Source: a virus. From it: a stretch of 25,576 bases of DNA. Where the stretch lies: positions 1 to 25,576 of IMG/VR virus record IMGVR_UViG_3300023176_004004. One strand, written 5' to 3'. Below the pieces are notes generated by a model, which worked only from the letters and a program-made list of their open reading frames with translations, searched no databases and was not told the DNA's origin. This document shows positions 17,309 to 24,210 of the stretch, piece by piece; positions within the stretch are counted from its first letter, which is position 1; each line of letters starts with the position of its first letter. The position numbers and the translations under genes are program-made.

Positions 17309-18256
17309 TTAGCTGCCAATAGTTGATTTTTTATTAGCTGCATCGCCGGCTGCTTTAGCTGCTGGTGCTGATTTAATGTCAGCTGCTTTACCACCTGGAA
17401 CGTTCACGTTACCCATGTCGTCCTCTTTTGGTGCTGCTGCTTTGCCGCCTGCTTCATCTTTTGATCCTGCTGCGATATTTGCTGATGTACCACCCATATC
17501 ATTTTTACTTGCTACAGCTGATTTTGTACCGTTAGTACCTGTATCGCCCATTTTTGGTGACACTGTGTCAACATATTCACGCATTACTTCGCCTGCTGAT
17601 TTTGGTGCTTTTGACTCTTCTACTTCGTCATCAGTTGCTTCTTCAACTTCTTCGTCTTCAAAAGCAATTGCTTCTTCTTCAGCTTCTTCGTCGTCGTCAC
17701 CTTCTTCTGAATCCATGTCCATTGGCATTTCATCATCTGCAGGTGCTTCGTCGTCGCCATCTGCCATCATTGCATCAAATTCTGCTTTTAGTTCGTCTAG
17801 CATGTCTTCAATGTCTGTTAAACGATCTTCTACATCGCCTTCACCTTCGTCGTCCATGCCCATTTCTGGCTCGTCGCCCATTTCTGGCTCATCGCCCATG
17901 TCTGGCATTTCAATGTCACCCATCATGTCATCAACTGGGTCTGCTTCTGCTACGTCACCATCAAAGAAGCTTTCGTCTACTTCTTCGTCTGCTTCGTCTA
18001 ATTCTTCTTCTGATTCGTCAACTTCTTCATCGGTTGCTTCGTCTAGGTCTTCGTCATCTGACTCATCTAGATCTTCATCAGTTGCTTCATCTACTTCTTC
18101 GTCAGTTGTTTCTTCAACTTCTTCATCTTCAAGTAGTGATTCATAAATGTCACGTGATTTTTCTACCACGATTTCGTGAAAAAGCTCTTCCGCACCTGCT
18201 TTGTCTTCATTGACAAGGCGCTCAAGCATTTCTTCAAACTTATTGCGTTCAGTCAT
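17309..18256 (-). CDS. Very acidic prohead core protein (gp68-position), 315 aa
   Basis: ATG at 18256 follows AAAGGAG. Residues 1-43 form an amphipathic helical head ('FEEMLERLVNEDKAGAEELFHEIVVEKSRDIYESLL') like the start of core proteins that precede gp21 in marine T4-like phages. Residues 44-215 are dominated by Asp and Glu, with tandem units such as 'EATDEEVDES' and 'MGDEPE'. The last 100 residues are Gly/Ala/Lys-rich and low in complexity. The position matches T4 gp67/gp68, which are small core proteins digested by gp21. Role as a core or scaffold component is inferred from position and composition; the acidic stretch could also mimic DNA charge inside the prohead. Antisense Ser-rich ORFs opposite it are composition artefacts. 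Confidence 0.75.
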   Translation of the reverse strand: MTERNKFEEMLERLVNEDKAGAEELFHEIVVEKSRDIYESLLEDEEVEETTDEEVDEATDEDLDESDDEDLDEATDEEVDESEEELDEADEEVDESFFDGDVAEADPVDDMMGDIEMPDMGDEPEMGDEPEMGMDDEGEGDVEDRLTDIEDMLDELKAEFDAMMADGDDEAPADDEMPMDMDSEEGDDDEEAEEEAIAFEDEEVEEATDDEVEESKAPKSAGEVMREYVDTVSPKMGDTGTNGTKSAVASKNDMGGTSANIAAGSKDEAGGKAAAPKEDDMGNVNVPGGKAADIKSAPAAKAAGDAANKKSTIGS

Positions 18257-18345: not shown

Positions 18346-18954
18346 TTATACGGGAAGTGCTTTTAGGCTGAATTTTTGCACAAATTCAGGTATAGTTTGA
18401 TGATATAAGTTTTGTAAATCTTTTAATTGATCAGGTACAAAACCTCTATTGTTTTCAGTTATCCTAATGTATTTAGTTCTTGGATTGGTGTTTATTGTCA
18501 TAGTAGTTTGCCGTACCCAATTACCATAATAAGTTGCTCTTTCGTCTGATCTTTTATAATTTTTTGTGTCTGCAAATAAATTGTTTACTTTATTATTATC
18601 TTCACCTACTCCTAAAAAATCAAATCCTAATATGTAAATGGTTTTAAATTTATGTGTACTAGCAAGCCATAATGCTGTAGGACCACTACTCCATCCTTTG
18701 TTAGGATTGAGTAAATTTAACCCTTCTACAGATTGGCTGTACTTGTTTGGATTAGTATATACTTTATGATGCCTATGATAGCCGTTATCTGCTATTTCCA
18801 TAATCATTTTAGTATCTACAGCTACTAAATGATCAACCGCACATTCTCTATAAACTGCATTACAAGCATATACAGTTCCTTGATCTTTTAATTGAGGTAT
18901 TGATATTTGTTTTCTACTTGTGCCATTGCCAAGCACAAAGGCTATCTCAGACAT
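18346..18954 (-). CDS. Rossmann-type sialyltransferase/MptE-like protein, 202 aa
   Basis: The pattern resembles CstII-type (GT42) sialyltransferases and DUF115/MptE-like proteins: a nucleotide-loop-like 'FVLGNGTSR' (6-14), 'YACNAVYRE' (29-37), 'LVAVDTKM' (43-50), 'SSGPTALWLA' (89-98) and 'IYILGFDF' (106-113). In CstII, GNGPS and the SG...A motif bind the nucleotide sugar. No signal peptide or membrane helix is seen. The start overlaps the stop of the gp67-like gene (TAATG), so the two are coupled. It is out of place among head-assembly genes and has a gap after it, which suggests a cargo gene inserted in the operon. Substrate unknown; surface-sugar modification of host or virion is a guess. 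Confidence 0.6.
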   Translation of the reverse strand: MSEIAFVLGNGTSRKQISIPQLKDQGTVYACNAVYRECAVDHLVAVDTKMIMEIADNGYHRHHKVYTNPNKYSQSVEGLNLLNPNKGWSSGPTALWLASTHKFKTIYILGFDFLGVGEDNNKVNNLFADTKNYKRSDERATYYGNWVRQTTMTINTNPRTKYIRITENNRGFVPDQLKDLQNLYHQTIPEFVQKFSLKALPV

Positions 18955-19218: not shown

Positions 19219-20979
19219 TTAAATTGTTTGATCTGTAGCAGGTTCTTCAGCGCCTAATGCTCCTAAGTCTGCGCCTGTGGCAGTATCAGGTGGTGTATCT
19301 TCGCCGCCGTCGATGCCGCCTAAGTCATCATCTAATCCTGTTTCTAAACCACCAAAGTCTCCGCCTAAGTCGCCTCCAGTAACACCTGCGCTACGCATTT
19401 CTGCACTTCCTTCAGCATCCGTTGGCATTAAGTTTTCATCGTTTTCTTCACGCCATAGACGTTCGTTTTCGGCAATTTCTTCTTTGCTCATACCTAAGAA
19501 TCTACTCATTGCAAATCTATTTGAAATATACGGAATAGCAGCCATTTGTGTAAATGTACCTATTCTGTTGTTATCAAGTTCAGCTTGTCTATAACTTGCA
19601 AAGTTTTGTGGTGGAGTTAGTTTTAAGTCAAACATTGCAAAGTCAACGTTTGCACCTTTACTGTTTAAATATAATTTAAATTCTTGGTTAAAAACTTCTT
19701 CAACCATTGCTTGCAAGCGTTCACAATACTTATTAAAACGTAGTTCTTGAATGTATGCTGTGCCTACTCGTCCATCATTATACTGCGATGCACCGTCGTC
19801 TGCACCAGTAGGCAAGTAGGAACTAGGTATACGCAAGCCACGCACCAACTTGTTAGTAAAATACCTAAGGTCATCAATTTCACCTAAGTTAGTACCACCT
19901 GGTAGTGTTTCAACTTTTGATCCACGTCCTTCAGCAGTTTGTGGGAAAAAGTAATCTTCGTTGATTGACAGTGGATTATAACTTGAGTCTATAACATTTT
20001 GTCCACCACCTGTCTTGGATGGGATTCGTCTTTGATGTATTTCCGTTTTAACACGCTCCACAAACTGCATAGCAAGGTGTGAAGGCATGTTGCCCACATC
20101 AACGTAGAATACTCTGCGCTCTGGCGCACGTTGGACACGATAGATAATAATCGCATCCTCAAGCAGTTCTTTCTGCTTGTAAACTTTAAAAATACTTTCT
20201 AGCAGACTGTTGCCAAAAGGAAAGTTTTGATCTAGTCCTTCGCTCATTGACAAATGAACAACGTGATTAGCATCTACAAAAGTTTCTTTTTCGCCCTGCT
20301 CAAATCTGCTTGCTCCTGTTGCAGGTGTACTATTGCCGCCTGTGCCAAATTGATTTGTTACCTGTTGATATCCTTGTGTACCACCAGGACCATAGCTGTT
20401 TTGTGTATTAAGAGGTGTTGCCTCTAGATTTTCAAAACTAAAATTTAAATTCTTTACAACATATTGTTCAGGACGCTTGCCTTCACTTTCGTTTACAATA
20501 ATTTTAGTAACTTGACTAGGGTCTACATGAAACCATTTTTGTGTTTCTGGGTCTCTAATAAAGAACTGGTCACCATATTTAAATGCATTACGCATAATGC
20601 GAAACATTCTTGTTTCAAATTTATTAAGTTTGCACCATTGTTTTAAATACTGTCCAAGAATTTGAACTTCAACATTTGTAGCTTCTTTATTGAAATTAAA
20701 ACTAAAGTGGGTGTCATTTTCTTTTGATGTCTGTGTGCAAAATTCTGCAAGAATGTCAAGTGCAGCATTTACTTCGCTGTCACTATCCATTGTATTGTAT
20801 TGATTATAACGTTCAATACGATTAGGAGAACCAACATAAACATCGGGCAAATGTGAACTATAATTAGCAGCCGCAGGACCTACACCAGAACCTTGTCCTT
20901 GTTTAAAACTGAAAGGACTGTAGCTTCCTGAAGGATTGTTACCAGTTTGTACTGGTTTAAAATGTTTTTTCCAACTCAT
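19219..20979 (-). CDS. gp20: Portal vertex protein gp20, 586 aa
   Basis: Dodecameric portal through which DNA enters and leaves the head; it also nucleates prohead assembly. Typical blocks: 'NRIERYNQYNTMDSDSEVNAALDILAEF' (about 53-80), 'RNAFKYGDQFFIRD', 'GNSLLESIFKVYKQKELLEDAIIIYRVQRAPERRVFYVDVGNMP', and 'FFPQTAEGRGSKVETLPGGTNLGEIDDLRYFTNKLVRGLRIPSSYLP'. It is slightly longer than T4 gp20 (524 aa); the last 70 residues form a Gly/Asp-rich low-complexity tail. Its ATG overlaps the tape-measure stop (ATGA). In T4, genes 18 and 19 precede gene 20; here the tape-measure gene takes that place. Confidence 0.97.
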   Translation of the reverse strand: MSWKKHFKPVQTGNNPSGSYSPFSFKQGQGSGVGPAAANYSSHLPDVYVGSPNRIERYNQYNTMDSDSEVNAALDILAEFCTQTSKENDTHFSFNFNKEATNVEVQILGQYLKQWCKLNKFETRMFRIMRNAFKYGDQFFIRDPETQKWFHVDPSQVTKIIVNESEGKRPEQYVVKNLNFSFENLEATPLNTQNSYGPGGTQGYQQVTNQFGTGGNSTPATGASRFEQGEKETFVDANHVVHLSMSEGLDQNFPFGNSLLESIFKVYKQKELLEDAIIIYRVQRAPERRVFYVDVGNMPSHLAMQFVERVKTEIHQRRIPSKTGGGQNVIDSSYNPLSINEDYFFPQTAEGRGSKVETLPGGTNLGEIDDLRYFTNKLVRGLRIPSSYLPTGADDGASQYNDGRVGTAYIQELRFNKYCERLQAMVEEVFNQEFKLYLNSKGANVDFAMFDLKLTPPQNFASYRQAELDNNRIGTFTQMAAIPYISNRFAMSRFLGMSKEEIAENERLWREENDENLMPTDAEGSAEMRSAGVTGGDLGGDFGGLETGLDDDLGGIDGGEDTPPDTATGADLGALGAEEPATDQTI

Positions 20980-23081
20980 CTAGCAACCCCTTTCAATATA
21001 TTTCCATTTAAGCCTTTTGTAGCACGTAAATTTTTAAGTTCTGTTTGTAGTTGTTGTTCGTTAATGCTTGCTACATTGTATATTCCTACGTTTAAATCTC
21101 TTATAGCATCATTTAAATTTTTAATCATATTACCGAGTTCACTATTGTTATTATTACTTATCGCATTAGAATTGTCAACCTGATTTTCTTGCAAAGTAGC
21201 AACACTATTCATTCTTTCTGCAATTTTATTCATTACATCGAAAGTTTTCATACGACCTGTAATCGATGCACCACCACTTATAATCTCAGGTCCAAACTCT
21301 CCAACTAATCCCATTTCACCTAAAGGAATTCTGCCGCCACTATCAAATCCTCTAATACTACCAGGAACTCTTTGCATATGTGTTAAACTTTCAACTACTC
21401 TTTTAGTTGCTTCAACTTTAGCTTCTGCATTTGCAATTTGTTCAGAAATGTATCTACTTGCTGCATCTTGAGCAGTAAAGCCGTCTGCTGTCATTTGACC
21501 TTGTTGTTCGTGTAATCTTGCTAACTCTTGTTGTGCATCAGCTAATTCTGATCTTGCAGTGTTAACATGTTCTTCAATATCTGTTCTTGTAGAAATTTCA
21601 TTTTCATTTAAAACATTATCAATATCCATTTCTAATTGATTTGCTAAATCAGCTGCTGTTCCTTCGCCTAAAATTACTTCTTCTGCATCCATGTCTACAG
21701 TGTTTGGCGTAAATGAAAATCCTTCGTTTAATCTATCAATTGCATCAGCAGCAGGATTAAGCACTTTACTAATTGCTTCTTCAACTTGTCTACGTAATGC
21801 TGCATCATCGCCCATTGCTTCGGTTACTTTTGTCAGTGCTGTTTCTGCTGCACCTACAAGTGCAGGTAAAGCAGTTTGTTGCACATACATTACTGTTTCA
21901 CGTAATGCTTCTTGCATATCAACAGTTTGTCTAATAATACCACCTGCGCCTATTTGTGCTTGTTGTTGATCTGCAATTGTATCTCTTAAACTTCCTATAA
22001 CTGCTGCTAAGTCATTTGATCCTTCGGCAGCACTAGTAATACCTCTGCGTAAATCAAAACTGCTTTCTAACATATCAGCAGCATTCGCACCTACATCGCT
22101 AAAGTTTCCTAGTAGTGCTAGGTTTGCAAATTCAGGTGACTCCATGCCTTCAACACTTGCACCTATAGCTTCATCTAATAGTCCTTGTGCTTCTTCTGCA
22201 CTTGCTCCATTTCTTATTGCTTGTGCATATGCTTCATATTCATCAATTACACTTGGAAGTGCTTTTGCAATCTCTTTACTTGCATCACTTACTGGTGCAC
22301 CAAAGGCTACCAAGTCCTGAATAAGTGTTTCAAAACCTGGTCCTAATTCACCTGCTGTTTGCAATCCTTCTTGCAATGCCATTGCCGAATCTTCACTGAG
22401 TGTTGATAGCAATGCTTGAACTTGGCCATTACGGCGTCTTTGTCTCATTTCTTCAGCAATTTGATCTCTTTGCTTACCTGTGAGTTTGCTTAATTCATCT
22501 AATGTGGTTGCAAACTGCGCTGCATTTGAATTTAATGTTCCATCAGTACGCATCCTACGCATACCTTCAACTGTTTGTAAATCTGCAAATGTAGCCAATG
22601 ATTCGTTTATATCTTGTACATCATAACCTAGCATACGTAAGTTTGTACCAAAATCACTGTCTAAAAAGTCTTTACTCATTTGTACAAAACTTTGTGTAGC
22701 ATCTTCAGTAGTGCCGCCTAATACTCTTAAAGCATTTTGATTTTTCATAAAAAACTCAGTCATTTCTTTAACTTCGAGACCCATTTCTGCTGCACTTTGT
22801 TTTATATCAACAACACTAGCACCAAAAGTTGCACCTATGTTTGTTAGCTGTTGATACTCTTTAAGACTACCTTCAGCAAAGTTTACCAGGCCTGCAATAG
22901 CTTTACTGGCTGTTCCTAATATTTTTGTGTTTGAATTTAAAGCGTCTGAGTATGCACTTAAACTTTGTGAACCACTAAGAAGGTTACCAGCAATGCCTAA
23001 ACCGGCACTTGCTATGTCACTACCTGCTCTTTTAAAATTTTCTGTTAAAAAATTTAATGCGCCGCCGGTTTCTTCAGCCAA
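20976..23081 (-). CDS. Tail tape-measure protein, 701 aa (gp29-like role)
   Basis: Sets tail length and is ejected with DNA. It is mostly helical and Ala/Gln-rich. Near residues 578-600 it carries 'GFDSGGRIPLGEMGLVGEFGPEI', matching the 'GG-R-x4-G-x4-LVGE-x-GPE' signature common near the end of tape-measure proteins. At about 0.15 nm per residue, 701 aa predicts a tail near 105 nm, similar to T4. The start is TTG at 23081: upstream in the same frame is a stop and no ATG, and AGGAG lies at 23091-23095. It is divergent from gp26 and overlaps gp20 by ATGA. Homology to T4 gp29 itself is not visible by eye; the role is assigned by signature, composition and neighbours. Confidence 0.85.
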   Translation of the reverse strand: MAEETGGALNFLTENFKRAGSDIASAGLGIAGNLLSGSQSLSAYSDALNSNTKILGTASKAIAGLVNFAEGSLKEYQQLTNIGATFGASVVDIKQSAAEMGLEVKEMTEFFMKNQNALRVLGGTTEDATQSFVQMSKDFLDSDFGTNLRMLGYDVQDINESLATFADLQTVEGMRRMRTDGTLNSNAAQFATTLDELSKLTGKQRDQIAEEMRQRRRNGQVQALLSTLSEDSAMALQEGLQTAGELGPGFETLIQDLVAFGAPVSDASKEIAKALPSVIDEYEAYAQAIRNGASAEEAQGLLDEAIGASVEGMESPEFANLALLGNFSDVGANAADMLESSFDLRRGITSAAEGSNDLAAVIGSLRDTIADQQQAQIGAGGIIRQTVDMQEALRETVMYVQQTALPALVGAAETALTKVTEAMGDDAALRRQVEEAISKVLNPAADAIDRLNEGFSFTPNTVDMDAEEVILGEGTAADLANQLEMDIDNVLNENEISTRTDIEEHVNTARSELADAQQELARLHEQQGQMTADGFTAQDAASRYISEQIANAEAKVEATKRVVESLTHMQRVPGSIRGFDSGGRIPLGEMGLVGEFGPEIISGGASITGRMKTFDVMNKIAERMNSVATLQENQVDNSNAISNNNNSELGNMIKNLNDAIRDLNVGIYNVASINEQQLQTELKNLRATKGLNGNILKGVAR

Positions 23082-23149: not shown

Positions 23150-23989
23150 ATGAATAATCAAAGCATACTTAGAAAATACAGGAGGCAACCAAAGTTGCAA
23201 ATAGATTTGCCTAGTAGAGGCGAATACTATCCTCCGGGTGCTTTACTTGACGGACAGTATAGCGATATTTCTGTTTTTAGTATGACACCAAATGATGAAA
23301 TAGCATTCAAAACTCCTGATGCATTAATTAACGGAGAAGCCACTGTTGCAACAATTAAAAGTTGTGTACCTGGTATTCAAGACCCGTGGAGTATACCTAC
23401 AATTGATATTGATACTGTTCTTGTAGGTATTAGAATTGCAAGTTATGGTGGATCAATGACTGTGAATAAAGTTTGTGGTGATTGCGGCACAGAAAATCAA
23501 TATGAAATACCATTAAGTTCGTATTTAGATTCATACAGCACAAAATCATTTGTAAACAGACTACCAGTTGACGATTTTATTTTCCATTTACGTCCGTTGA
23601 ACTATAGAGAATTTACAAACAATCAAAAAAGACTTTTAGGTATTAGACGTTCTTTGAACACTATTATAACAAACAAAGATTTGTCAGAAGAAGAAAAAGG
23701 AAAAGCAATGGAACCTCTGTATGTTGAACTTGCACGTACTCAGTTAGATTCAATTTACGCAACAATGGTAGGCATTGAAGTTGAAGGCGAAGTTGAAAAA
23801 GATAAAAATGAAATTGCAGACTTTTTTGAAAACAATGATAACAAATATATTGCAGAAGTAAAAAATGCAATAGAGAAAAACTTTAAAACTTGGTCAGCAC
23901 CAACCCATACCGTGCAATGTACCAATTGTAATAAAGAAGATGAAATGCAGGTTACATTGGATACATCGGATTTTTTCGGGAAAGGCTAG
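23150..23989 (+). CDS. gp26: Baseplate/tail assembly protein gp26-like, 279 aa
   Basis: Resembles the T4 baseplate protein family represented by gp26. Key blocks: 'DLPSRGEYYPPGALLDG' (19-35), 'MTPNDEIAFKTPDALINGEATV' (45-66), 'SCVPGIQDPWSIPTIDIDTVLVGIRIASYG' (71-100). Two CxxC pairs (Cys109/112 and Cys257/260) suggest a zinc site. I chose ATG at 23150 (AGGAG 7 bases before) over an upstream in-frame start at 23102 that overlaps the promoter. In T4 the order 26-51-27-28-29 places this gene upstream of the tape measure. Here it is on the opposite strand but adjacent. The end of the gene carries a -1 frameshift signal, so a second, 353-aa product is predicted. Confidence 0.9.
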   Translation: MNNQSILRKYRRQPKLQIDLPSRGEYYPPGALLDGQYSDISVFSMTPNDEIAFKTPDALINGEATVATIKSCVPGIQDPWSIPTIDIDTVLVGIRIASYGGSMTVNKVCGDCGTENQYEIPLSSYLDSYSTKSFVNRLPVDDFIFHLRPLNYREFTNNQKRLLGIRRSLNTIITNKDLSEEEKGKAMEPLYVELARTQLDSIYATMVGIEVEGEVEKDKNEIADFFENNDNKYIAEVKNAIEKNFKTWSAPTHTVQCTNCNKEDEMQVTLDTSDFFGKG

Positions 23990-24024
23990 TGAGCCTAACC
24001 GACACCGAAGTCTACTCACTAGCC
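23971..24024 (+). promoter_or_regulatory. Programmed -1 ribosomal frameshift signal
   Basis: Slippery heptamer T TTT TTC (23971-23977) is in the gp26 reading frame (GAT TTT TTC). A 6-base spacer GGGAAA follows, then a perfect 10-bp stem GGCTAGTGAG (23984-23993) / CTCACTAGCC (24015-24024) with a 21-base loop. The gp26 stop TAG (23987-23989) is inside the stem. After a -1 slip the ribosome reads CGG GAA AGG CTA GTG and enters the frame of the 73-aa ORF, with no stop until 24210. Confidence 0.85.
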
Positions 24025-24210
24025 GATGATATGGAAAATGAAATAAAACAAATTAAAGACAACTGGTATCGTATTGGCTGGTATATGAGAGGTAGTGCTA
24101 ACATACATGACTTACTTACTGATACAGATGTTGGAGATATAGAAATATTCAACAACATCATTAAAGATAACATCGATACAAGTAAAAATACTAAACTAGC
24201 TTGGGTTTAA
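23989..24210 (+). CDS. 73-aa ORF, probably the frameshift extension of gp26
   Basis: The frame is open from before 23989 to the TAA at 24208-24210. If translated alone it would start at GTG 23989, sharing a base with the gp26 TAG stop (TAGTG) and lying inside the 10-bp stem. The sequence is acidic and helical ('YSLADDMENEIKQIKDNWYRIGWYMRG', then 'DLLTDTDVGDIEIFNNIIKDNI'). I do not recognise a family. It sits at the position of T4 gene 51 but is far shorter (T4 gp51 is 249 aa). As a -1 fusion it adds 77 residues to the first 276 of gp26, giving 353 aa. By analogy with lambda gpGT, the extension may bind tape-measure or tube protein (inference). Confidence 0.75.
   Translation: MSLTDTEVYSLADDMENEIKQIKDNWYRIGWYMRGSANIHDLLTDTDVGDIEIFNNIIKDNIDTSKNTKLAWV

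Follow-up and report, generated by a model that had tools for sequence, protein, structure and literature searches.

How is the open frame that follows a gp26-family gene expressed in a marine T4-like phage? The question is raised by a stretch of viral DNA of 25,576 nucleotides (nt) (positions 1 to 25,576 of IMG/VR record IMGVR_UViG_3300023176_004004; this whole stretch is termed the window), in which the gp26 gene ends within a sequence that has the form of a frameshift signal. The analysis described here indicates that the gene very probably undergoes programmed -1 frameshifting, generating proteins of 279 and 353 amino acids with a proposed role as a tail assembly chaperone pair.

The gp26 gene and its frameshift signal

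The gene lies at 23150..23989 on the + strand, and its zero-frame product is the short form of 279 amino acids. This protein matches Pfam family PF12322 (T4_baseplate) with E = 8e-17 and a score of 62.1 bits against a gathering cut-off of 24.5, and PHROG family phrog_150 (baseplate hub) with E = 1.7e-16. The AlphaFold2 model of the protein has a predicted local distance difference test score (pLDDT) of 91.5.

The 3′ end of the gene reads GAT TTT TTC GGG AAA GGC TAG. It contains the slippery heptamer T TTT TTC in the gp26 frame (23971..23977, + strand), and this is the only in-frame occurrence among the 8,089 codon positions of 16 open reading frames (ORFs) of the window. The heptamer is followed on the same strand by the 6-nt spacer GGGAAA (23978..23983), and then by a perfect stem of 10 base pairs (bp) with a loop of 21 nt. 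The 5′ arm of the stem is GGCTAGTGAG (23984..23993, + strand), and the 3′ arm, recognized by folding, by a scan for stems and by covariation, is CTCACTAGCC (24015..24024, + strand). The TAG stop codon of gp26 (23987-23989) is located within the 5′ arm. Predicted folding of the 70-nt region that includes the stem gives -20.3 kcal/mol (z = -2.17), and a stem as good as this one was found at 1 of 4,932 control positions. The -1 frame extension (23977..24210, + strand) comprises 77 codons and a stop, so that the long form would have 353 amino acids. The frame was kept open in 4 of 5,000 dinucleotide shuffles of these 234 nt. All the elements of the signal described in the original prediction, i.e. 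heptamer, spacer, stem and loop, the stop codon inside the stem and the sizes of the two products, are thus present as proposed.

Conservation of the heptamer

Two sets of loci were taken from IMG/VR. The window-type set consists of the best 80 of 577 relatives found in a profile scan, plus two contigs with a gp26 identical to that of the window, and the cyanophage-type set consists of 79 complete loci from a second scan made with a cyanophage gp26. Both include close relatives, and kinship therefore inflates the raw counts; the numbers of distinct junctions are 51 for the window type and 77 for the cyanophage type. An in-frame NNT TTT TTC at the 3′ end of gp26, together with an open -1 frame, is present in every locus examined (82/82 and 79/79 respectively). 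For 11 loci the distances to the stop codon derived from tblastn, at 11-25 codons, are too long, since the match continued through a stop located one codon past the pair of phenylalanine residues (FF) encoded by TTT TTC.

The signal is also found in distant phages. Nine named phages whose gp26 is 22-28% identical to the window protein were checked at the end of the gene, together with S-SM2, and in all of them except XacN1 the stop is preceded by an in-frame T TTT TTC, from which the -1 frame stays open. The same heptamer occurs in S-SSM4, P-RSM6, ME01, Astolliot, Moby, Vibrio phage 6E35.1a, SRB7757 and Aeromonas phage 65.2. Variant heptamers are seen at this position in XacN1 (L013), with T TTT TTT, and in Rhizobium phage RHph_I9 (L184), with T TTT TTG. 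The classical heptamer is missing from the gp26 genes of Cba120 (L185) and Vibrio phage D532 (L182), and in EC-F2 the gp26 gene is a single fused frame. We note that in both Cba120 and D532 an extension-like ORF is still present in the -1 frame past the gp26 stop (SIFEISESMPWHLDLL and SYTEYNSLMPWHLMSL).

The codon before TTT TTC is variable (GAT, AAT, AGT, TCT, GGT, CGT, CAT or TAT, i.e. Asp, Asn, Ser, Gly, Arg, His or Tyr), and wherever T TTT TTC is present this codon has T as its third base. FF pairs at other positions of these loci are coded as NNT TTT TTC in 8 of 134 cases for the window type (6%) and 4 of 168 for the cyanophage type (2.4%). Since this coding is so rare among other FF pairs, the heptamer is unlikely to be a by-product of conservation of the protein. 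Its coding thus points to retention by selection at the level of the nucleotide sequence, beyond that of the amino acids.

Conservation and covariation of the stem

In the clade to which the window belongs all ten distinct junctions have a stem of 9-12 bp at a spacer length of 6 nt. In the alignment of these junctions 99% of the cells are paired, and five of the ten base pairs have changes on both sides while the other five are invariant. The observed covariation score of 0.489 compares with 0.165 in shuffled alignments and no more than 0.198 in slid controls, and was reached by none of 500 shuffles.

Outside this clade the picture is more varied. Strong stems at similar spacing are found in other window-type branches (L060, L066, L073/L078/L083/L088, L079, L087 and L096), and over the 51 window-type junctions 24 stems reach the 95th percentile of the controls and 19 the 99th. 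The cyanophage junctions have weak stems, with 10 of 77 at the 95th percentile. None of the 51 window-type junctions has a stimulator resembling a Shine-Dalgarno sequence ahead of the heptamer. The spacer and the covarying stem are therefore kept in the clade of the window but are not universal, and the alignments indicate that the heptamer is general across the family while the stem is lineage-specific.

The -1 frame extension

The extension is conserved as a protein, with the motif WYMRGG, and is 78-79 residues long in every complete window-type case from IMG/VR. Its AlphaFold2 model (pLDDT 86.6) is a helical domain. When the extensions were scanned against Pfam, all matches were at chance level. 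The extension is unannotated in the GenBank records of PA5oct (L004), RaK2 (L011), S-SSM4 (L177) and Aeromonas phage 65.2 (L187), and in several cyanophages it is annotated as a separate gp51. The present analysis corrects both kinds of annotation.

The cyanophage extension aligns with the tail of T4-type gp51 (hhalign 97.5%, E = 7.8e-12), and the C-terminal columns of phrog_150, the gp26 family, match it as well. The window-type extension gives a weak match to the same gp51 tail (57%, E = 1e-4).

Expression of the extension

We infer from these sequences both the ribosomal shift itself and its rate. Most ribosomes would terminate at TAG to give the 279-residue gp26, while a minority would slip back by one base on T TTT TTC, assisted in the clade of the window by the downstream stem. 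The shifted ribosomes would read 77 further codons, generating the protein of 353 residues with its C-terminal helical domain.

Several observations weigh against this. The window has a GTG that shares bases with the gp26 stop (TAGTG), so that a separate small protein could be made, and many cyanophages have an ATG three or six codons past the heptamer. A strong downstream stem is absent from about half of the window-type and from most of the cyanophage junctions. In addition, comparison of the models of gp26 and of the extension with the PDB gave no significant fold match for either, and the P2 gpE and gpE′ families (PF10109 and PF06528) align with gp26 and the extension at below 1% in hhalign, although these profiles are shallow; no match to either family was found in the Pfam scans of gp26 or the extension. 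Because of these last results the chaperone role rests on the layout of the locus and on the T4 literature, and by analogy we suggest that the short and long forms are the tail assembly chaperone pair of the T4-superfamily phages.

The overlapping GTG might be used in termination-reinitiation, whereby gp26 would end at TAG and ribosomes would restart to make a separate protein of 73 amino acids (23989..24210, + strand). In some relatives small ORFs are annotated that begin at a start codon of their own. However, the start is not conserved, being missing in loci L018-L020 and L024-L030. Of the 51 distinct window-type junctions 28 lack any ATG, GTG or TTG in the 20 codons with which the extension begins, and 21 of 50 lack one before the WYMRG motif. 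With more than half of the distinct junctions lacking an early start codon, initiation at a separate start cannot account for the extension in general. Moreover reinitiation would need no heptamer, whereas the heptamer is present in all the junctions with the -1 frame open from that point. We consider reinitiation an improbable source of the extension in general, and the 73-residue protein is judged not to be the main product, but a separate small product is possible in those phages that have a start codon, including most of the cyanophages.

RNA polymerase can slip on runs of T, and a run of six is short for such slippage. The long form might then arise by transcriptional slippage on the U6 run and not by slippage of the ribosome; the six-T run is compatible with this, but an RNA stem that covaries and keeps a constant spacing of 6 nt is typical of ribosomal frameshifting, and we regard the transcriptional route as very improbable. 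That FF is conserved for reasons of protein structure or function, with the heptamer a by-product and the downstream ORF an unrelated overlap, is scarcely credible: FF is indeed kept in T4 gp26 (EFFELL), which has no -1 frame extension, but there it is coded TTC TTT after GAG, whereas the frameshifting relatives use the otherwise rare NNT TTT TTC, and the extension is conserved as a protein, whose cyanophage version is homologous to the gp51 tail. Programmed ribosomal frameshifting thus accounts best for the expression of the long form.

Relation to gp26 and gp51 of T4

Both gp26 and gp51 of T4 match PF12322, and the profile of the window gp26 aligns with a combined cyanophage and T4 gp26/gp51 profile at 99.4% (E = 2e-21). 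T4 gp51 exceeds gp26 by about 50 C-terminal residues. The two T4 genes are divergently transcribed, and neither has a slippery heptamer at its end, the FF of gp26 being coded GAG TTC TTT.

The two T4 proteins are paralogues, and T4 appears to use a separate gene for each of the two forms. The simplest reading would be a duplication after which one copy would have remained short and the other would have become permanently fused. The original prediction had suggested that T4 genes 26 and 51 descend from a frameshifting gene split in two. The outcome was correctly foreseen, but instead of one split gene T4 has the complete gp26 domain twice, and only gp51 retains a tail homologous to the extension.

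The same heptamer is found at the same gene end in phages that share 20-30% protein identity, and from this the two-gene arrangement of T4 looks derived. On balance we favour the view that the gp26 frameshift is ancestral in the T4 superfamily, including cyanophages, jumbo phages and several T4-like genera, and that T4 and its close kin lost it by duplication; gp26 would have kept FF without the heptamer, gp51 would have fixed the fused long form, and individual branches would have evolved their own stems.

Neighbouring genes

The gene beside gp26 encodes a protein of 701 amino acids and is divergent from it (20976..23081, - strand). It is conserved in this position, with opposite-strand tblastn matches beside gp26 in most of the window-type relatives. 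The PA5oct counterpart is annotated as a structural protein, and that of RaK2 is labelled 'similar to tape measure'. Profile searches with the window protein in Pfam and PHROG matched no tape measure family. The earlier identification of this neighbour as the tape measure protein is plausible, and the gene is divergent rather than downstream. In cyanophages the gene directly downstream of the gp26 region weakly matches tape measure PHROGs.

Two other genes lie in the region of the head genes. A protein of 202 amino acids (18346-18954, - strand), encoded beside the portal gene, weakly matches an alpha-2,3-sialyltransferase family (phrog_4603, E = 5.7e-4), which is odd for a gene in this setting. 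A very acidic, repetitive protein of 315 amino acids (EEVDEATDED...; 17309-18256, - strand) has no Pfam or PHROG family match.

Comparison with known frameshifting systems

Tail assembly chaperone frameshifting is a known kind of recoding. Vladimirov et al. 2022 (Virology 566:9-15) reportedly addressed the tail assembly chaperones of T4-like phages. Passages in two later papers draw on that work: the PRFect paper cites it for some T4-like phages having a short gene and a fused long gene in place of frameshifting (PMC10885494), and the Adele paper for slippery poly-T sequences in the chaperone genes of T4-like phages (PMC12846349). As represented in these citations, much of the idea of T4-like frameshifting is probably already contained there, and the earlier statement that no frameshift had been published at this locus is doubtful. 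What is added here is the breadth of the signal and the covarying stem.

The gp26 frameshift may be likened to that of P2, where gpE and gpE+E′ are generated by a chaperone frameshift on T TTT TTG. P2 gpE has 91 amino acids compared with 279 for the window gp26, and neither part has detectable profile homology. The P2-like prophages examined mostly have T TTT TTG, with T TTT TTC in two. We note that in the P2-like prophage of Edwardsiella hoshinae (L332) the chaperone gene uses T TTT TTC, and its stop codon immediately follows FFG; this is the layout of gp26 in the T4 superfamily, in proteins that are not detectably related. The arrangement also resembles that of lambda, in which a low-level -1 frameshift generates a short form (gpG) and a long form (gpGT) from one gene (PMC5009743), although here the likeness is inferred.

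The cyanophages S-SM2 and P-RSM6 share the heptamer with the window. In the cyanophage loci from IMG/VR the stop is one codon past FF and the -1 extension is 61-68 amino acids long, shorter than that of the window. The cyanophages differ further in mostly lacking a strong stem, and in GenBank they have two separate genes or the extension is left unannotated.

The G-T frameshift is described as conserved in long-tailed phages except T4 (Atkins et al. 2016, PMC5009743). The present comparison suggests that this exception is a derived state rather than a separate solution. T4 and the window phage use the same PF12322 family, with the short and long forms provided by two paralogous genes in T4 and by a single gene with a frameshift in the window phage. 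The relatives, which include phages of culturable hosts, offer a test bed in which a ratio of short to long chaperone set by frameshifting can be compared with one set by gene duplication.
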